The notes below the pieces were generated by a model. It was not told the DNA's origin. It worked only from the letters and a program-made list of their open reading frames with translations, and ran no database searches. The position numbers and the translations under genes were made by a program. A stretch of DNA of 8,606 nt from Pseudonocardiaceae bacterium (GTDB lineage: Bacteria; Actinomycetota; Actinomycetes; Mycobacteriales; Pseudonocardiaceae). The stretch spans positions 1-8,606 of the forward strand of contig JAICSB010000123.1 in assembly GCA_025937115.1 (NCBI GenBank), written 5' to 3'. Of this stretch, positions 2 through 8,605 are shown in pieces; positions within the stretch are counted from its first letter, which is position 1; the number at the start of each line of letters is the position of its first letter.

Positions 2-1630
2 GGGAGGGACGCGCTAGTCGGTGAGGCGACGGTGATTGACATCGGGACCTCGATGGGCGACGGAGCCCAGCTGGGTCATACCTCCTCGCTGCACACCGGG
101 CAGGCCGTGCCCGACGGCGAGCGCTGGCACGGGTCCCCAGCGCAGCGAACCGAGGTGGACTACCGGGCGGTCGACCCCACCGACTGCGGCGCCCTGAGAA
201 GGGCCCTGTTCCCCGTCGTGCAGTTGTTGGGGATGCTGGTCCTGTCCGTGCCGCTGGCGGTCGGCGGTGTGACCATGCTTGCTGAGGTCCCACAGCTCGC
301 CACGATCCTGGACCCGGGGACGCTGGCCGTCACGAGCTGGACATTCTACGGCGAGGCCCTGGCTGCCTCTTTCTTGCTCTTCTTCGGCTCTGTGCTGCTC
401 GGCCTGCTCGTTGTGTCCACTGTCCCTCGCGTGCTCAGCCTCGCCATCAAGCCGGACAAGGTCTATCGCTTGTATGGCGTCCACTACTGGATCCACCGGG
501 TGATCGCGCGCATGACCAATATACGGTTCTACACGCGCCTGTTCGGTGACAGCTCCTATATCGTCCACTATTTGCGTGGCCTCGGGTACGGCCTTTACCA
601 GGTCGAGCAGACCGGGTCGAACTTCGGCACGGAAGTGAAACACGAGACCCCGTACCTGAGCTCGGTCGGTAGCGGAACGGTGGTAGCTGACGGGCTGTCG
701 ATCATCAATGCCGATTTCTCGAGCACGTCTTTCCGGGTGTCCCGAGCGTCAATCGGGTCACACAACTTCCTCGGGAACAGGATTGCCTATCCCTCGCAGG
801 GCCGGACGGGTGACAACTGCCTCCTCGCGACGAAGGTCATGGTTCCCCTCGACGGGGAGGTCCGTGAGGGTGTCGGGCTTCTGGGCTCGCCCAGCTTCGA
901 GATTCCGCGATCGGTCGAACGTGACAACAGGTTAGACGTGACGAGCACGGATGAACTGCGCCGGCGACTCACCGCCAAGAACAAGCACAATGCCGTCACC
1001 ATCGGGTTGTACCTGCTGGTGCAGTGGATCTATCTCTTCGCGGTCACCGTGCTCGCTTTAGGCGCCATGGACCTCTACCCCTCGTTCGGTACGTGGGTGG
1101 TCGCGCTGGCCGAGGTACTTGTCCTCCTGTTCACCACCGTCTACTTCGTGCTGGTGGATCGTGCTGTCAGGGTACTTCAGGCCTTGCGGCCGCAGGGCTG
1201 CTCGATCTACGACCACGCCTTCTGGCGGCACGAACGTTTCTGGAAGCTGTGTGCGGATTCGTACCTCACGGTCTTCAACGGCACCCCGTTCAAGAACGTC
1301 ATCTGGCGGCTACTGGGTGTTCGGCTCGGCAGCAGGGTCTTCGACGACGGCGTCTTTTTAACGGAGAGGTCGTTCGTCACCATCGGTGACGGCTGCACAC
1401 TCAATGCGGGGACCGTTATCCAGTGCCACTCGCAAGAGGACGGCGCCTTCAAATCTGACCGCACCGCGATCGGTGTCGGCTGCACTCTCGGGGTCGGCGC
1501 CTTCGTCCACTACGGCGTGACGATGGGCGAGGGCGCGGTGCTTGCGCCCGACTCCTTTCTCATGAAGGGCGAGGAGATCCCACAGCGCGCGCAATGGGAG
1601 GGAAATCCGGCCAGGGAGGTTCAAAAATGA
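2..1630 (+). CDS. Pls/PosA-type membrane synthetase, C-terminal part (5' end outside window)
   Basis: The reading frame is open to the left edge, so the gene starts upstream; the GTG at 32 lies inside a hexapeptide repeat and is not a credible start. In the 542 visible residues I read: the tail of a left-handed beta-helix (hexapeptide) domain (1-52); membrane helices near 69-93 and 119-142; a second soluble domain (about 145-325) with the family-like segments GDSSYIVHYLRGLGY, QTGSNFGTEVKHE and SIINADFSSTSFR; membrane helices near 331-356 and 365-386; and a third soluble domain (about 387-542) ending in hexapeptide repeats. This matches the end of epsilon-poly-lysine synthetase (Pls), where an A-T portion is followed by six membrane helices and three acyltransferase-like domains that form isopeptide bonds at the membrane. 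Whether this protein has its own A-T domains cannot be seen. It carries three TTA codons (932, 1058, 1358) and overlaps the next gene by 4 bp. Family assignment is firm; substrate is unknown. Confidence 0.9.
   Translation, partial: GRDALVGEATVIDIGTSMGDGAQLGHTSSLHTGQAVPDGERWHGSPAQRTEVDYRAVDPTDCGALRRALFPVVQLLGMLVLSVPLAVGGVTMLAEVPQLATILDPGTLAVTSWTFYGEALAASFLLFFGSVLLGLLVVSTVPRVLSLAIKPDKVYRLYGVHYWIHRVIARMTNIRFYTRLFGDSSYIVHYLRGLGYGLYQVEQTGSNFGTEVKHETPYLSSVGSGTVVADGLSIINADFSSTSFRVSRASIGSHNFLGNRIAYPSQGRTGDNCLLATKVMVPLDGEVREGVGLLGSPSFEIPRSVERDNRLDVTSTDELRRRLTAKNKHNAVTIGLYLLVQWIYLFAVTVLALGAMDLYPSFGTWVVALAEVLVLLFTTVYFVLVDRAVRVLQALRPQGCSIYDHAFWRHERFWKLCADSYLTVFNGTPFKNVIWRLLGVRLGSRVFDDGVFLTERSFVTIGDGCTLNAGTVIQCHSQEDGAFKSDRTAIGVGCTLGVGAFVHYGVTMGEGAVLAPDSFLMKGEEIPQRAQWEGNPAREVQK
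1613..1620 (+). promoter_or_regulatory. Strong ribosome binding site deciding the A-T gene start
   Basis: AGGGAGGT lies 6 nt before the ATG at 1627, whose last two bases begin the upstream stop codon (ATGA). A longer start at ATG 1594 sits deep inside the preceding gene without such a site. This makes 1627 the preferred start and indicates translational coupling. Confidence 0.8.
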
Positions 1631-4239
1631 ACCCACAGGAGTTTGGCGAGACAGTCGAGACATCCGTGGCGTGGTCACCGGGGAATAGCACCGTGGCAAC
1701 AGTGAATGGAAGGGACGATCCGATGGGGATGCGAGTGGATGCTGGCCGGGAGTTTTGGCGCGGTGTGCTGGTCGCCGGCGGCTTCAGCGCGATCCCGCGG
1801 TGGACCCGCGATCCGGTGACGGGCGTTGGGGAGCACGAGGCGACGATCCCCGACGACCTCGTGGCGGCGTTGCGCCGGCTGGCCGACGAGGTGGCGGTGC
1901 CGCTGCGCTCGGTGCTGCTGGCCGCGCACGCCAAGGTGCTCGCCGCGCTGTCCGGCGAGCGCGAGGTAGCGACCGGCTACGTCACCGCCGATGGCGGCCG
2001 GTCGTTGCCCTGCCGGCTGACGACCCAACCCGACTCGTGGCGGACGTTGCTGCGCGCCACCCATCGGGCCGAGTCGGAACTGCTGTCGCACAAGGACTTT
2101 CCGGTCGATGATCTCAGGCGCGAGCTGGGCCTGACTGGACCGTCGTTCGAGACGGTGTTCGATCCGACCGGCAACGGCGGCGATCTCGCCGAGGACACCG
2201 TGCTGTGGGTGGGAATCTCGCAACGCGGCGGCCAACTCGTGCTGCGGCTGCGCTACCGGAGCGACGCGCTCGACGCGGAGTGCGCCGCCAGGATCGCCGG
2301 CTATCACGTCACCGCACTCGCACTGATCGCCGCCGATCCGGACGCCGAGCACGGGCGGCAGAGCCTGCTGTCCACCGAGGAACTCCACTTCCAGCTTGAC
2401 GGGCTCGCCGGACCGCGCCGCGAGCTGCCGGACCTTCGGTTCCACGAGCTGTTCGAGCAACGGGTGGCGGCGCACCCGGACGCCGTCGCGGCCGTGCACG
2501 GCGACCGGCAGTGGAGCTACCGGGAGCTCAACGTCCGCGCCAACCGGCTGGGACGGGCCCTGTTGGCGCGGGGGCTGCGCCGCGAAGGTGTCGTCGCGGT
2601 GGTGACCGAGCGCAACCTGGACTGGATGGCTGCCGTCCTCGCGATCTTCAAGGCCGGTGGCGTGTACCTGCCCATCGAGCCGCATTTCCCAGCCGATCGC
2701 ATCGCGACCACGATCTCGCGTGCCCAGTGCAGGCTCGTGCTGACCGAACCCGGCAGCACCACCACCCTCGGCCAAGCCCTCGACTCGCTGTCCGGAGTCC
2801 AGACGCTGTTCATCGACGCGGCTTACGAGGAGGACCACGCCGACGGTGATCTCGGCGTCGGCGTCGCGGAAGACCAGCTCGCCTACATTTACTTCACCTC
2901 CGGTTCCACCGGTGAGCCCAAGGGTGCGATGTGCGAGCACGCGGGCATGCTCAACCACCTCTACGCCAAGATCGACGACCTAGAAATCGGCGAGCGAGAG
3001 GTGGTCGCCCAGACCGCACCCCAGTGCTTTGACATCTCGCTGTGGCAACTGGTCTCCGCGCTCCTGGTCGGTGGACGGACCCTGCTGGTCGAGCAGGAGG
3101 TGATCCTGGACGTCCAGCGGTTCGTCGACAAGATCGTCGACGGACGGGTCGCCGTGCTGCAGGTCGTGCCGTCATACCTCGAAGTCGTGCTCTCCTATCT
3201 CGCGAGGCACCCCCGCGCACTGTCGGACCTGCGGTGCGTATCGGTCACTGGCGAGGCGCTGAAGAAGGAGCTCGCGCAGCGCTGGTTCGCGGCCGAGCCT
3301 GAGATCAAGCTGGTCAACGCGTACGGGCTGACCGAGACCTCGGACGACACCAACCACGAAGTCATGGACCGGGTACCGGACTCCGAACTGGTCCCACTCG
3401 GTCCCCCCGTCAACAACGTGCACGTCTACGTCGTCGACGAGCACCTGTCGCCGGTGCCGCTCGGCGCCCCCGGTGCGATCGTCTTCTCCGGGGTCTGCGT
3501 CGGCCGCGGGTACATCAACGACCCCGAGCGCACCCGGCTGGCCTACCTGGCCGATCCGCACCGCGAGGGCCAGCGACTCTACCGGGGCGGAGACTACGGC
3601 CGCTGGCAGCCCGGGGGCAAGCTGGAGTTCCTCGGCCGCCGGGATACCCAGGTCAAGATTTCTGGCTTCCGGATCGAGATCGGCGAGATCGAGAACACCC
3701 TGTTGCGGGTGCCCGGTGTCCGCGACGGTGCGGTGGTGGTCGCCGATCGGGCCAACCGCAGCAAGTACCTGGTGGCCTTCTACTCCGGCGAGCGGCCACT
3801 CGAGGTCGACGTCCTGCGCGGCCGGCTGGGTGAGTCGCTGCCCGGGTACATGGTCCCGGCGGCCTTCCACTGGCGGGAAAGTCTGCCGCTCACCGCCAAC
3901 AGCAAGATCGATAGGAAAACGCTGACAGCGCTCGCCGGAGAGCTCGCCAGCGGTGACGTCACTGAGCAGCGCTACCACGCGCCGAGCACGCCGACCGAGC
4001 AGCGGCTGGCGATTGCCTGGGCGAAGGTACTCGGCATCCCGCAGGACCAGATCGGCCGGTCGGACCACTTCTTCGACCGGGGCGGGACGTCGCTGTCGGC
4101 TGTGAAGCTGGCGATCACCCTGGACCGTGCGGTGTCCCTCAAGGATCTCATCTGTCACCCGGTCCTCGCCGATCTGGCCGGGCTGGTCGATGGCAGGTCC
4201 GAGCGGCTGCCCGCCGCCGCATTGTTGGCTTCTGCTTGA
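1627..4239 (+). CDS. NRPS adenylation-thiolation protein with N-terminal half condensation domain
   Basis: This 870-residue protein activates an amino acid as its adenylate and loads it on a phosphopantetheine arm. Residues about 40-250 resemble the C-terminal half of a condensation domain: a C5-like SLPCRLTT stretch, a C6-like HKDFP (H155) and a C7-like segment. The first half, with the catalytic HHxxxDG, is absent. The adenylation domain spans about 272-775, with YFTSGSTGEPKG (422-433), FDISLW (D469), NAYGLTE, GRRDTQVKISGFRIEIGE and the terminal NSKIDRK with catalytic K760. The thiolation domain (about 785-860) has FFDRGGTSL with the carrier serine at 822. No thioesterase or downstream condensation domain follows, so the loaded residue must be passed to a partner in trans, most simply the membrane synthetase encoded just upstream. 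My by-eye specificity code is D-I-W-Q-S-T-A-D-D-K; the acidic pair could suit a diamino acid such as Dap, but the substrate is not established. ATG 1723 is a possible alternative start; it would cost 32 residues and no domain. Confidence 0.93.
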   Translation: MNPQEFGETVETSVAWSPGNSTVATVNGRDDPMGMRVDAGREFWRGVLVAGGFSAIPRWTRDPVTGVGEHEATIPDDLVAALRRLADEVAVPLRSVLLAAHAKVLAALSGEREVATGYVTADGGRSLPCRLTTQPDSWRTLLRATHRAESELLSHKDFPVDDLRRELGLTGPSFETVFDPTGNGGDLAEDTVLWVGISQRGGQLVLRLRYRSDALDAECAARIAGYHVTALALIAADPDAEHGRQSLLSTEELHFQLDGLAGPRRELPDLRFHELFEQRVAAHPDAVAAVHGDRQWSYRELNVRANRLGRALLARGLRREGVVAVVTERNLDWMAAVLAIFKAGGVYLPIEPHFPADRIATTISRAQCRLVLTEPGSTTTLGQALDSLSGVQTLFIDAAYEEDHADGDLGVGVAEDQLAYIYFTSGSTGEPKGAMCEHAGMLNHLYAKIDDLEIGEREVVAQTAPQCFDISLWQLVSALLVGGRTLLVEQEVILDVQRFVDKIVDGRVAVLQVVPSYLEVVLSYLARHPRALSDLRCVSVTGEALKKELAQRWFAAEPEIKLVNAYGLTETSDDTNHEVMDRVPDSELVPLGPPVNNVHVYVVDEHLSPVPLGAPGAIVFSGVCVGRGYINDPERTRLAYLADPHREGQRLYRGGDYGRWQPGGKLEFLGRRDTQVKISGFRIEIGEIENTLLRVPGVRDGAVVVADRANRSKYLVAFYSGERPLEVDVLRGRLGESLPGYMVPAAFHWRESLPLTANSKIDRKTLTALAGELASGDVTEQRYHAPSTPTEQRLAIAWAKVLGIPQDQIGRSDHFFDRGGTSLSAVKLAITLDRAVSLKDLICHPVLADLAGLVDGRSERLPAAALLASA

Positions 4240-4298: not shown

Positions 4299-5303
4299 AT
4301 GTCGTTCTCATTCCCGGCGTCACTGCTCAACGTGGAGCTGCAACCCGGCAAACCCCCGATACTGCGGGCCGAGGCCCCCGGCGACGCGCCGAGCTGGACG
4401 GCCGAGCACCGGGACGCGCTGCGCACCGCCGTCGCCGAGCACGGTTCGGTCCTGGTCCGCGGCCTCGGGCTGCGCGACTCGACCGAGGTCGGTGCGGTCT
4501 TTGCGCGGCTGGCCACCGGTCTGATGACCGAGAAGGAAGCCTTCGCGTCCCGACGGACCTACTCCGCGGGCGTGTACTCCTCATCGAAGTGGCCGTCGAA
4601 CCAACCGATGTGCATGCACCACGAACTGAGCTACACGCTTGAGTTCCCCGGCCTGATGCTGTTCGCGTGCCTGCGCGCACCCACCGACGGCGGCGCGACC
4701 GCGGTCGCCGACTCGCCGACCGTGCTCGACGCGCTGCCCACTGAGTTGATCGAGCGGTTCGAGCGGGAGGGCTGGCTGCTCACCCGCAACTACAACGACG
4801 AGATCGGGGCATCCTTCGCCGAGGCGTTCGGCACCGAGGACCGTGGTGCCGTGGAGAGCTACTGCCGCGCCAACGCGATCGAGTTCCAGTGGCAACCCGA
4901 CGGTGGACTGCGCACCAGGCAGCGCCGCAGCGCCGTAGTGCGTCACCCGGTCACCGGGGCGCGCTGCTGGTTCAACCAGATCGCATTCCTCAACGAGTGG
5001 ACGATCGATCCCGAGGTGCGCGAGTTCCTGGTGGACATTTACGGCGCCGACGGGCTGCCGTTCAATACCCGCTTCGGCAACGGCGACCCGATCGGCGAGG
5101 ACGTCGTGGCGCTCCTCAACAGGGTCTATGAGGCCAACACTGCACGCGAGCAGTGGCAGGCCGGCGACCTGATGCTCGTCGACAACGTCCGCACCGCGCA
5201 CAGCAGGGAACCCTTCGAGGGACCGCGCGAAGTCCTTGTCGCGATGGCCGACGCGGTACGCCTGACCGACTGCTCGCCGCTCGTCGAGGTGACTTCCCGA
5301 TGA
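4299..5303 (+). CDS. TauD/TfdA-family (SyrP-like) Fe(II)/2-oxoglutarate dioxygenase
   Basis: This 334-residue protein has the expected size for a TauD/SyrP-type oxygenase, which uses Fe(II), O2 and 2-oxoglutarate to hydroxylate amino acids, often while they are bound to an NRPS carrier. The iron facial triad is readable: H107-H-E109 in MHHELSYTLEFPG (family form HxE/D...SY) and distal H301 in DNVRTAHSREPFEGPREVL. R310, or possibly R303, is the likely 2-oxoglutarate-binding arginine. The ATG at 4299 has GAAAGGA 7 nt upstream. It lies directly behind the A-T gene and overlaps the SbnB-like gene by 4 bp, so it probably acts on the residue carried by the A-T protein or on a related free amino acid. 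The SyrP group includes aspartyl and glutamyl beta-hydroxylases, but residue, position and stereochemistry cannot be read here, and desaturation is also possible in this fold. Confidence 0.9.
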   Translation: MSFSFPASLLNVELQPGKPPILRAEAPGDAPSWTAEHRDALRTAVAEHGSVLVRGLGLRDSTEVGAVFARLATGLMTEKEAFASRRTYSAGVYSSSKWPSNQPMCMHHELSYTLEFPGLMLFACLRAPTDGGATAVADSPTVLDALPTELIERFEREGWLLTRNYNDEIGASFAEAFGTEDRGAVESYCRANAIEFQWQPDGGLRTRQRRSAVVRHPVTGARCWFNQIAFLNEWTIDPEVREFLVDIYGADGLPFNTRFGNGDPIGEDVVALLNRVYEANTAREQWQAGDLMLVDNVRTAHSREPFEGPREVLVAMADAVRLTDCSPLVEVTSR

Positions 5304-6370
5304 CCACCGTCCGTTCGACCGCCGCGGAGTCCGCCATGTCCGAGCCGCTCACCGTGCCATCGTTCGCGGTGATCTCCGGTGCCCAGGTCCAGCACGCGCT
5401 GCACGGGCGCGAAAACCAAATCCTGGAGTTGGTCGAGGCCACCTACCGGCTGCACGGCGCCGGTGATTCGGTGAACCCGCCGTCCTACTTCCTGCGTTTC
5501 CCCGACCGCCCGTCCGCACGGATCATCGCGCTGCCCGCCTCGATCGGCGGGCAGGTGCGGGTGGATGGCCTGAAGTGGATCTCCAGTTTCCCGGAGAACG
5601 TGGCGGCAGGCATCCCGAGGGCGTCGGCCGTGCTGATCCTCAACGACCACGACACCGGCTACCCGTTCGCCTGCCTGGAATGCTCGATCATCAGCGCCGC
5701 TAGAACGGCCGCGTCGGCGGCGTTGGCAGCTGACTGGCTCAGCCGCGGCAGGCGGCGCCCGACGCGCGTCGGGTTCTTCGGGGTGGGCCTGATCGCCCGC
5801 TATATCCACACCTTCCTGACCGCCACCGGCTGGTCGTTCGACGAGATCGGCGTGCACGACCTGTCCACCGACAGTGCGGCCGGCTTCCGCGATTACCTGG
5901 AGCACTCGGGCACCGCCAGCGCGATCACCGTGCACGACAGCGCCGAGCAGTTGATCCGCTCCAGCGACCTGGTGGTCTTCGCCACCGTCGCCGCTGCGCC
6001 ACATGTCAGCGACCTGTCGTGGTTCGAACACAATCCGGTGGTGCTGCACGTGTCGCTGCGCGACCTCGCGCCGGAGATCGTGCTCGCCTCGACCAACATC
6101 GTCGACGACATCGAGCACTGTATGAAGGCCAACACCTCGCCGCATCTGGCCGAGCAGCTCACGGGCAACCGGGACTTCCTGCACGGCACGTTGGACGACG
6201 TGATGTCCGGGCGAGTGTCGGTGCCGACGGACCGGCCGCTGGTGTTCTCGCCCTTCGGCCTCGGGGTGCTCGACCTCGCGGTCGGCAAGTACGTTTACGA
6301 CGAGGTGCTCCGCTCCGGCGACTTGCACGTCGTCGACGACTTCTTCCACGAGCTGCGCCGGTACGGATGA
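5300..6370 (+). CDS. sbnB: SbnB-like 2,3-diaminopropionate biosynthesis dehydrogenase
   Basis: This 356-residue protein belongs to the ornithine cyclodeaminase/mu-crystallin superfamily, SbnB branch. In the known pathway SbnA joins O-phosphoserine and glutamate to N-(1-amino-1-carboxyl-2-ethyl)-glutamate, and SbnB oxidises this with NAD+ to release L-2,3-diaminopropionate and 2-oxoglutarate. Visible support: GLKWISSFPEN with the conserved superfamily lysine (K92), the stretch LNDHDTGYPFACLECSIISA followed by RTAASAALAA, and a Rossmann nucleotide-binding turn G158-F-F-G161-V-G163-L-I-A. The ATG at 5300 overlaps the dioxygenase stop (ATGA) and has GAGGTGA 7 nt upstream; ATG 5336 with a nearby GGAG is a weaker alternative. 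No SbnA homologue is in the window, so it must lie elsewhere if the pathway is complete. A true ornithine cyclodeaminase or another amino-acid dehydrogenase is the main alternative. Confidence 0.9.
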   Translation: MTTVRSTAAESAMSEPLTVPSFAVISGAQVQHALHGRENQILELVEATYRLHGAGDSVNPPSYFLRFPDRPSARIIALPASIGGQVRVDGLKWISSFPENVAAGIPRASAVLILNDHDTGYPFACLECSIISAARTAASAALAADWLSRGRRRPTRVGFFGVGLIARYIHTFLTATGWSFDEIGVHDLSTDSAAGFRDYLEHSGTASAITVHDSAEQLIRSSDLVVFATVAAAPHVSDLSWFEHNPVVLHVSLRDLAPEIVLASTNIVDDIEHCMKANTSPHLAEQLTGNRDFLHGTLDDVMSGRVSVPTDRPLVFSPFGLGVLDLAVGKYVYDEVLRSGDLHVVDDFFHELRRYG

Positions 6371-6772: not shown

Positions 6773-8605
6773 TCAGTCAGCGAGCTCCAGGACGGTCACT
6801 GTTCCAGTGTCGAGGTTGGCCACATAGGCCTCCATGCCGCTGGGCAGCACCGCGATACTGCTCGGGCTGCCCCCGGTGGGAATGGTAGCGGTGACCTGGT
6901 TGGTGCCGGCGTCAATGACGGAAATGTTATTGCTGCCCTCATTCACCACGTAGGCGAACCGTCCATCCGGAGCCCAGACGATGTCCCGGGGGTTCTTCCC
7001 GACCGGGATGGTCGCAACGACCTTGAGGGTGTTGGTGTCAATCACCGACACGGAACTGGCGTCGTAATTCACGTTAGCGACTAGGGGCCGGTTGGGGTGT
7101 ACGGCGATGCTATGTGGGCTGGTCCCGACCGGGATGGTCGCAACAACTGTGCGGGTGGCAGTGTCGATCACTGAGACCAGGTTGGACTCGTGGTTGGCTG
7201 TGTAGGCGCGGCTGCCGTCACGGGAAAACGCGACCCAATGGGGGTTGGGGGCGACCTTGATCTGGCCGACGACGGTATTGTCGGCGGTGGAGACCACCGA
7301 CACGGACGCAATGTCGTGGTTCGGAACGTAGAGCAGTTTGCCATCCGAGGCGACCGCCGGGAGGAACGGGCGCGCGGGTTGCGGGATCGTTGCGACCACG
7401 GTATTCGACGTGGTGTCGATCACGTCGATTACATGTATTGTCCGCTGATCGTTGTAGATGGTGACATAGAGCGTGCGACCGTTCGGTGCGAAAGCGAGGA
7501 ACTGGGGTGGGCCCGCTGGGATGGGGATCGTCGCGGTCACCTTGTCGACCGCAGTATCCAGAACGGTGATCACCTGAATGTCCCGATTTGCGATGTAGGC
7601 GTGCCGACCGTTCGGGGAGACCGCGACGAAGCCTGGGGTCTTCCCCACTTGGATGGTGGCACCGATAGCGGGTATCGCGACTTCCGGGCCGTTGTTCGGC
7701 TCCGCGATGGGAGCGGGCTCGGGGAGCGTTGAGTCTGACGGTAATTGGTTAGCGACTACGGCCAAGACGAGCGCAATCGTCCCGGCCAGCACCAGTCCCA
7801 CGATAGCGATCAGGACCCATCCCCGGCGTCCAACACCGGTGACTGCGGCCAGCAGCGAGCGGCCGGAAGAGATGAGGGTAGGGACCCAGGTGGGGGCGGT
7901 AGTTTCGGGCGCGATTCCCGTACGAGGCTGGGTCGGCCCGCCCCCCGATCCGGCCGCACGGTTGTCCGATAGCGGGGTGCTGAGTGGCGGAGAAGGTTGC
8001 GCGAGTCGCGGTTGCGCCGCCGGAGCCGGGATCCTGACGGACCTCGTATCCGGGCGGGTTGCGCCGACCCCGAGCGGGCTGCGGGTGGGGACGGCCGTCG
8101 CCTCGCGGTCTGGTGTGCGCTGCGCCGGGATCGCCATGACCAGACCATTCGACGACATCGGCGTCTGACCATTTTGTTTCTGGTCATCTCGTTGTTGATG
8201 ACGGGTACCGAAGACTGTGTCCGCCGTCGGCATTGGGACCGGGGCCGCGTCAGCGGCCAGTGTGGCGGCACCGAGGGCGACAGCGTATTTGGGATGGGTG
8301 TCCACTACCGTGGGGCGTCCCAGCTCGGCTGCCACCATCTGTGCGACTAACGGGATGCGCGAGGATCCGCCTACCAGCAGCACCGCGCTGAGGTCGGTGG
8401 GTTGCACCTGAGCTGACTGAAGGGTCCGCGAGAGTGCTCCGATGGTGGACTCGATCGGGGCTCGTACCATGTCCTCGAAGTCCGACCGAGTGATGCGCAC
8501 GTCGAAGTGCCGGCCGGGGAGAAGGACCGGGAGGACCGTCTCGGTGTCCACCGAGAGAGCCTCCTTGGCCAGGATGCAGTCCTGCCGCAGCCGGGCGAGC
8601 GCGAC
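6773..8605 (-). CDS. Hsp70-like ATPase fused to transmembrane helix and YVTN beta-propeller (5' end outside window)
   Basis: The frame is open to the right edge, so the N-terminus is missing; GTG 8551 is internal, because the residues before it (ARLRQDCILAKEALS) are typical Hsp70 ATPase sequence. In the 610 visible residues: the end of an Hsp70/DnaK-type actin-fold domain (1-about 130) with AKEALSVDTET, ITRSDFEDMVR and the nucleotide-binding LLVGGSSRIP; a Pro/Thr/Arg-rich low-complexity linker (about 130-255); one membrane helix (about W263-287); a short Pro-rich spacer; and seven repeats of about 42 residues (315-610) of the YVTN type, such as SVIDTATRTVVATIPVG. The ATPase should be cytoplasmic and the propeller outside the membrane. 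Membrane-anchored Hsp70-like proteins with varied C-termini occur in actinomycetes; the role here is unknown. It seems independent of the biosynthetic genes. Confidence 0.88.
   Translation of the reverse strand, partial: VALARLRQDCILAKEALSVDTETVLPVLLPGRHFDVRITRSDFEDMVRAPIESTIGALSRTLQSAQVQPTDLSAVLLVGGSSRIPLVAQMVAAELGRPTVVDTHPKYAVALGAATLAADAAPVPMPTADTVFGTRHQQRDDQKQNGQTPMSSNGLVMAIPAQRTPDREATAVPTRSPLGVGATRPDTRSVRIPAPAAQPRLAQPSPPLSTPLSDNRAAGSGGGPTQPRTGIAPETTAPTWVPTLISSGRSLLAAVTGVGRRGWVLIAIVGLVLAGTIALVLAVVANQLPSDSTLPEPAPIAEPNNGPEVAIPAIGATIQVGKTPGFVAVSPNGRHAYIANRDIQVITVLDTAVDKVTATIPIPAGPPQFLAFAPNGRTLYVTIYNDQRTIHVIDVIDTTSNTVVATIPQPARPFLPAVASDGKLLYVPNHDIASVSVVSTADNTVVGQIKVAPNPHWVAFSRDGSRAYTANHESNLVSVIDTATRTVVATIPVGTSPHSIAVHPNRPLVANVNYDASSVSVIDTNTLKVVATIPVGKNPRDIVWAPDGRFAYVVNEGSNNISVIDAGTNQVTATIPTGGSPSSIAVLPSGMEAYVANLDTGTVTVLELAD
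6776..7663 (-). repeat. Seven tandem YVTN beta-propeller repeats (coding)
   Basis: Seven units averaging about 42 codons encode the pattern 'G-x-x-P-x-x-(I/V)-A-(V/F)-x-P-x-G-x-x-(A/L)-Y-V-x-N-...-(V/I)-(S/T)-V-(I/L)-D-...-V-x-A-T-I-P'. Seven blades are enough for a closed propeller, with GATIQVG at the N-terminal end probably supplying the strand that closes the ring. A 22-nt stretch is identical at 6997-7018 and 7123-7144, exactly 126 bp (one 42-codon unit) apart, which points to recent duplication or gene conversion between neighbouring blades. Confidence 0.85.

Follow-up and report, generated by a model that had tools for sequence, protein, structure and literature searches.

A probable split Pls-type synthetase for 2,3-diaminopropionate, fed in trans and marked by complementary domain losses

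Several described systems resemble the locus reported here. The epsilon-poly-lysine synthetase Pls/PosA has the same membrane polymerisation domain (TIGR02353) and, unlike the relatives of the synthetase considered below, a complete adenylation (A) domain in cis (PMC10522769). The PDAP synthetase of Streptomyces albulus PD-1 shares a Pls-type C-terminal domain and, probably, the monomer 2,3-diaminopropionate (Dap), but it carries a complete cis A domain and a carrier in one polypeptide and has its Dap genes elsewhere, whereas here TauD and SbnB adjoin a distinct protein that bears the A domain (PMC4668381). In capreomycin biosynthesis one A domain, CmnA-A1, charges L-Dap to its own thiolation (T) domain and, in trans, to the A-less protein CmnI (PMC12400406). 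The logic would be the same here, an A domain loading Dap both onto the T of its own protein and, in trans, onto an A-less carrier protein, and by analogy we regard CmnA-A1/CmnI as a demonstrated precedent for trans-loading of Dap. CmnI has a C-terminal condensation (C) domain and no Pls domain is described for it in the available part of the source, whereas here the carrier is coupled to a Pls polymerisation domain (PMC12400406). A search of open-licence literature (listings and the starts of abstracts) found no description of a Pls-type synthetase without an A domain, which is weak evidence, and no such layout appears in the available portions of PMC4668381, PMC10522769, PMC9606270, PMC12283262 and PMC12400406.

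The window, by which we mean the whole 8,606-nucleotide stretch of DNA that was analysed, holds the end of a Pls-family gene followed by A-T, TauD and SbnB frames, all in the same direction (Table 1). A preliminary description had joined the end of a Pls-family membrane synthetase to a separate A-T protein by an ATGA overlap, and this is confirmed by the TIGR02353 match and by the frames at 2-1630 and 1627-4239: the TGA stop of the Pls frame is 1628-1630 and the candidate ATG of the A-T frame is 1627-1629. An alternative A-T start is possible at 1723, with AGGGA 5' of it. The Pls frame matches the "Pls/PosA family" profile with 589.3 bits (cut-off 423.1) over positions 164-695 of 695; about 160 profile positions and all N-terminal parts of the protein lie outside the window. 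Genome contigs were scanned with the A-T protein, and the best 80 of 528 confirmed loci were compared; the content upstream of Pls was taken from these relatives, the window's own Pls N-terminus being off the contig. A gene for an Hsp70 part and a beta-propeller resembling that at the right end of the window also adjoins the cluster of locus L001 (16540-19071, minus strand).

Table 1. Features of the window, with the basis of each assignment.
Feature	Position	Strand	Basis and remarks
Pls/PosA-family membrane synthetase, C-terminal 542 aa (polymerisation domain)	2..1630	+	TIGR02353; frame open at left window end
AGGGAGG, predicted ribosome-binding-site-like sequence 5' of the ATGA overlap	1613..1619	+	sequence reading
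Stand-alone A-T protein, 870 aa	1627..4239	+	open frame and profile search
Condensation domain, C-terminal half; N-lobe missing	1735..2424	+	PF00668, predicted model, Foldseek
Adenylation domain, complete; code read DIWQSTADDK; A10 lysine K760 at 3904-3906	2452..3927	+	AMP-binding and AMP-binding_C
Thiolation (carrier) domain, Ser822 at 4090-4092	4003..4185	+	PP-binding
TauD/TfdA Fe(II)/2-oxoglutarate dioxygenase	4299..5303	+	PF02668, 153 bits
SbnB, 2,3-diaminopropionate biosynthesis	5300..6370	+	TIGR03944, 426.4 bits vs cut-off 326.9
Hsp70/DnaK-like part and YVTN/YncE-type beta-propeller in one protein; exceeds right window end	6773-8605	-	profile search

The A-T protein was described at the outset as having neither a complete C domain nor a release domain, which is correct for the window: a profile search found AMP-binding (260.6 bits), AMP-binding_C and PP-binding, a Condensation match below threshold (positions 194-280 of 456, 27.6 bits, cut-off 30.6) and no thioesterase. 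Over this protein's N-terminal part, 45 of 45 aligned members match PF00668 at E<=0.01, and the window's piece alone scores 35.1 bits. AlphaFold modelled the entire protein poorly (pLDDT 50.7), and that model was set aside; the N-terminal 230 residues, modelled separately, gave a pLDDT of 89.5 and a best Foldseek match to Txo1 C-A (E 2.5e-14). Judged by profile and predicted fold, this part is the C-terminal lobe of a condensation domain. The HHxxxDG motif of full condensation domains sits in the N-lobe. HHxxxD strings in L060 and L067 were considered as that motif and rejected, since they are located at the window's SHKDFPVDD stretch, in the C-lobe and away from the catalytic position. In L118, L119 and L123 the match to the A-T protein begins only near residue 183-189, and there the half C domain appears to be mostly gone too.

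The catalytic residues of the A-T protein are intact. For residues we use the A1-A10 motif names and the D235/K517 numbering, which we take to apply here. Equivalents of the A3 lysine, D235, the A7 aspartate and K517 (the A10 lysine) are found in all 81 A-T proteins compared (the window's and those of the best 80 of 528 loci), and the carrier serine in 80 of the 81, the exception, L051, being cut by a contig end. The absence of a release domain is not general. In the same set, 48 of 81 proteins exceed 1000 aa and so have an extension the size of a thioesterase, with a G-x-S-x-G motif in 46 of the 48; in L003, the one scanned, the extension was identified as PF00975. The other 33, among them the window's protein and the truncated L051, are without it.

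What precedes the Pls domain was read through the relatives. The Pls proteins of L001 and L002 are nearly full-length TIGR02353 matches (797 and 783 bits) in which PP-binding is also detected, and a T motif stands before the Pls domain in 71 of the 78 Pls frames among the best 80 of 528 loci. Five of the remaining seven are cut by contig ends; L011 carries a variant T motif, LCANS, and in L075 the Pls matches fall in two frames. Sixty-six loci from the best 80 have at least 1.5 kb readable 5' of the T motif; the 12 Pls-bearing loci outside this set comprise ten that are short of upstream sequence, L011 (because of its T motif pattern) and L075. No A-like tblastn match was found upstream of the T motif, in any frame, in 60 of the 66 loci, which encode T-Pls only. 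An in-frame relic of an A domain, ending before the A10 lysine, is present in four (L001, L002, L038 and L041, all Pseudonocardiales by title), and L057 and L068 gave weak A-like matches on the opposite strand only. A complete A domain ahead of Pls in the same polypeptide was found in none of them. A-less Pls frames with a visible 5' stop measure 830-960 aa in 52 of 64 cases, so the length filter of 1100-1800 aa used for the similarity network of these synthetases in a published survey (PMC10522769) would exclude most of them.

Closest to the window's Pls among the matches listed is P0133 (1223 aa; 99.1% identity over 542 aa), whose A domain carries an internal deletion, lacks the C-terminal subdomain and is followed by two T motifs. 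Because the window's Pls N-terminus is off the contig, the conclusion for its strain rests on such near-identical relatives, and by them its own synthetase would likewise be without a working cis A. The split layout proposed at first is supported, with one correction: in relatives the cis A has been lost from the Pls side, but the Pls protein keeps a T domain of its own, and some keep two or three. Tandem T motifs, two or three, precede the Pls domain in P0121, P0124, P0125, P0133, P0139, P0143 and others, and in L038, L041, L053 and L056.

Relics were surveyed by querying proteins with the N-terminal region of the L002 synthetase. From 7646 matches the best 120 carry the labels P0121-P0240, and P0121-P0179 were compared. 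Retrieval used the relic A-T region of L002, so the frequency of relics is biased. In a tree of the Pls domain with 135 tips, the synthetase clade below can_L095 (support 0.81) contains 114 tips, made up of 73 loci, 40 P-proteins and the window. No A was seen in 70 of these, a relic in 44 and an intact A in none. Among the 70, the window, L014, L028, L051, L052 and L078 exceed contig ends, and L076 is counted here since its A follows Pls; two pairs of tips in the clade are the same protein twice (L001/P0131 and L002/P0122). Outside the clade the A10 lysine is kept by 18 of 21 tips (17 by alignment and can_L090 by motif), the neighbouring branch can_L095 (Amycolatopsis decaplanina) has an intact A, and P0127-P0129, on another branch, have a full-length A in which the A10 lysine is replaced by threonine. 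P0134, P0136, P0151, P0156 and P0173, with a Pls part that is short or unmatched, are not in the tree; by alignment P0136 and P0151 are without the A10 lysine and P0173 has it. The alternative layout in the preliminary description, a synthetase with its own working A to which a second A-T adds a residue, is not supported, there being no intact cis A in the clade examined.

The lesions in the relics vary: the C-terminal subdomain is lost, there is an internal deletion (the same one in P0155 and P0133), or the domain is full length and without equivalents of D235 and K517 (P0153 and P0164). They are unlike even among the close relatives P0123, P0124, P0133 and P0135, the relic of P0123 extending to A7 only. 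That relics are not confined to a single branch (P0125, P0153, P0164 and the main Pseudonocardiales group) speaks for repeated, independent decay of an ancestral A. Support is 0.99 for the main Pseudonocardiales relic group and 0.02-0.52 for the deep branches within the clade, and because of this low support we claim no number of losses. Many relics retain Asp-Phe-Glu at code positions 1-3, and thus Phe at position 2, the type of the Dap/Dab polymer synthetases PDAP and PDAB (PMC10522769). The pocket code kept in many of them (DFECLSVVT and near variants), together with a dN/dS that is still below 1 (0.52, one pair), would be expected if the relic A of Pseudonocardiales synthetases still worked, either unaided or with the C-terminal subdomain of the A-T protein as its complement. 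We think this very unlikely, given that the relics have no A10 lysine, that lesions differ between close relatives and that 60 of the 66 loci have no A at all. Between L001 and L002, the one pair compared, dN/dS is 0.52 for the relic A, 0.30 for T and 0.39 for Pls, as against 0.22 for the A domain of the A-T protein, 0.27 for TauD and 0.17 for SbnB. In absolute terms the relic A has a dN of 0.069, below the 0.123 of Pls, since dS is likewise low in the relic. For this pair, the values fit relaxed constraint on the relic A.

If the cis A has gone, the Pls carrier would draw on another A domain. In relatives, an A-less, T-bearing protein and a separate, apparently intact A occur in the same cluster; the corresponding T side of the window is off the contig. 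Nineteen hand-picked genomes were checked for other Pls-family frames over cut-off. In eight (G005, G007, G038, G071, G591, G596, G597 and G599) the only Pls-family frames are shorter than 1000 aa, too short for A-T-Pls, so that no other Pls could supply an A. The exclusion argument fails in the other 11: nine have Pls-family frames beyond that length, contig ends interrupt G598, and in G001 the sole Pls-family frame is the L001 relic. In L076 (7199-14362, plus strand), from a metagenome-assembled genome titled Acidimicrobiaceae, T-Pls and half-C-A-T share a single open frame of 2388 aa, which supports the view that Pls and the A-T protein are a functional pair.

Loading of the Pls carrier by the A-T protein is something we infer, and the further long-frame Pls-family genes in nine of the 19 genomes leave room for a different arrangement, in which the A-T protein charges its own T only, the Pls T is charged by another A in the genome and the genes are separate modules. 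This seems unlikely in view of the eight genomes whose Pls frames are all too short to include a cis A, the L076 fusion and the absence, from a crude count of gene families over the best 80 of 528 loci, of any other NRPS gene that recurs beside the cluster. The preliminary description named one finding that would refute its own proposal, a complete, conserved A-T in the upstream part together with an A-T gene serving another NRPS. As far as could be seen this is not the case: the upstream A is absent or a relic, and no other NRPS gene recurs in that crude count. We consider it likely that the locus encodes a split Pls-type synthetase for Dap that is fed in trans, with complementary losses, of A from Pls and of half of C from the A-T protein. 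Counting against this reading are two loci without an adjacent Pls (L059 and L121), the 11 genomes noted above, the position of the window's N-terminus off the contig, the biased sample of relics, the low support of deep branches inside the clade and the single pair behind the dN/dS values.

The gene content of the cluster bears on the substrate. Pls is present in 78 of the best 80 of 528 loci, TauD in 77, SbnB in 73 and SbnA in 66, with many of the absences on short contigs. Gene order in related genomes, a comparison proposed in the preliminary description, bears the cluster out: Pls, A-T, TauD and SbnB lie together in most of these 80 loci, and no other gene family occurs in more than eight of them (crude gene caller and family count). 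SbnA is absent from the window and is found 5' of the Pls gene in L001 (389.6 bits, cut-off 349.95). TauD has four solved relatives by sequence, the best being At3g21360, with clavaminate synthases weaker. Of the 81 A-T proteins from the window and the best 80 of 528 loci, 70 have the specificity code DIWQSTADDK and the other 11 have DIWQSTTDDK. A Dab code served as a lead. DVWQMIGDDK is the code of a beta-OH Dab domain and two Dap codes are 80% identical to Dab codes, while DIWQ is absent from the available text of the same paper (PMC12283262). Because SbnA and SbnB are in the cluster and the code resembles Dab and Dap codes, the substrate of the A-T protein is likely to be Dap. A similar cluster may exist in S. 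albulus PD-1, for which PMC4668381 (Table 1 and text) gives accession EXU92121.1 for njxB, the Dap gene, and EXU92123.1 for an NRPS left unstudied; the closeness of these accession numbers suggests that njxB belongs to a cluster like the window's.

A mechanism can be proposed on this basis. L-Dap would be made by SbnA and SbnB; the A domain of the stand-alone protein would activate it, charge its own T domain and charge, in trans, the T domain or domains that precede the Pls membrane domain, whose own A is deleted or decayed. Amide bonds would be formed by the Pls domain, replacing the condensation domain half lost from the A-T protein, and a Dap unit would probably be oxidised by TauD. The chain may be released by the thioesterase fused to the A-T protein in many relatives and absent from the window's. 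With two T domains available, a mixed or modified product is possible. The fuller reading, that these two-protein Pls machines form a widespread family in which a single Dap-specific A supplies a carrier on each of the two proteins, Pls stands in for the lost C, and a TauD-modified or mixed Dap oligomer or polymer results, we hold tentatively, at a little under an even chance. A branched Dap-Dap polymer is said to have been reported by Takehara in 2021, and a cluster of this kind might conceivably be its source.

The product could instead be a defined short peptide, with Dap on T-Pls and Dap, possibly TauD-modified, on the A-T protein being joined by Pls and the di- or oligopeptide released by the fused thioesterase. 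The placing of T domains on two proteins, the frequent extension (48 of the 81 A-T proteins, 46 of these with G-x-S-x-G, and PF00975 in L003) and the presence of TauD in 77 of the best 80 loci agree with such a peptide. We rate it possible, if rather doubtful, since 33 of the 81 A-T proteins, including the window's (and L051, cut by a contig end), are without the extension and the described Pls-family enzymes are polymerases (PMC4668381, PMC10522769). Should the trans-fed synthetase be borne out, the Pls polymerisation domain would be separable from its own activating domain and open to feeding in trans, which would bear on substrate use and selection by the membrane domain and would offer a natural design for polycationic polymers of new kinds. 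In that case the graded decay of the cis A would document the move of a module from cis to trans activation.

The layout occurs in many soil bacteria. Among 199 sampled Streptomyces genomes, 80 have a relative of the A-T protein at E<=1e-200; for 396 genomes of the same phylum the number is 8, six of these eight coming from the 199-genome sample. The product may accordingly be a common yet overlooked compound. Some of these relatives are only 49-60% identical, and a Pls match adjoins the A-T gene in five of the six neighbourhoods fetched, L121 being the exception. L059 and L121 have A-T, TauD, SbnB and SbnA without an adjacent Pls, and both genomes have other, short Pls frames elsewhere. Such a distribution is hard to reconcile with a decaying, non-functional cluster, which the two eroded domains might suggest; the purifying selection on A-T, TauD and SbnB (dN/dS 0.17-0.27, one pair) and the catalytic residues of the A-T protein's A domain, invariant in all 81 proteins, also speak against it, and we regard it as extremely improbable. 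A plasmid search returned nine records, none covering 80% of the query and with H1 unannotated there. One of them, a Streptomyces decoyicus plasmid (record H5; L124, NZ_CP108348.1 49516-68394), carries a different Dap cluster, in which SbnB-SbnA lie near an "amino acid adenylation" protein of about 524 aa (a stand-alone A), MbtH, TauD and a tryptophan halogenase.
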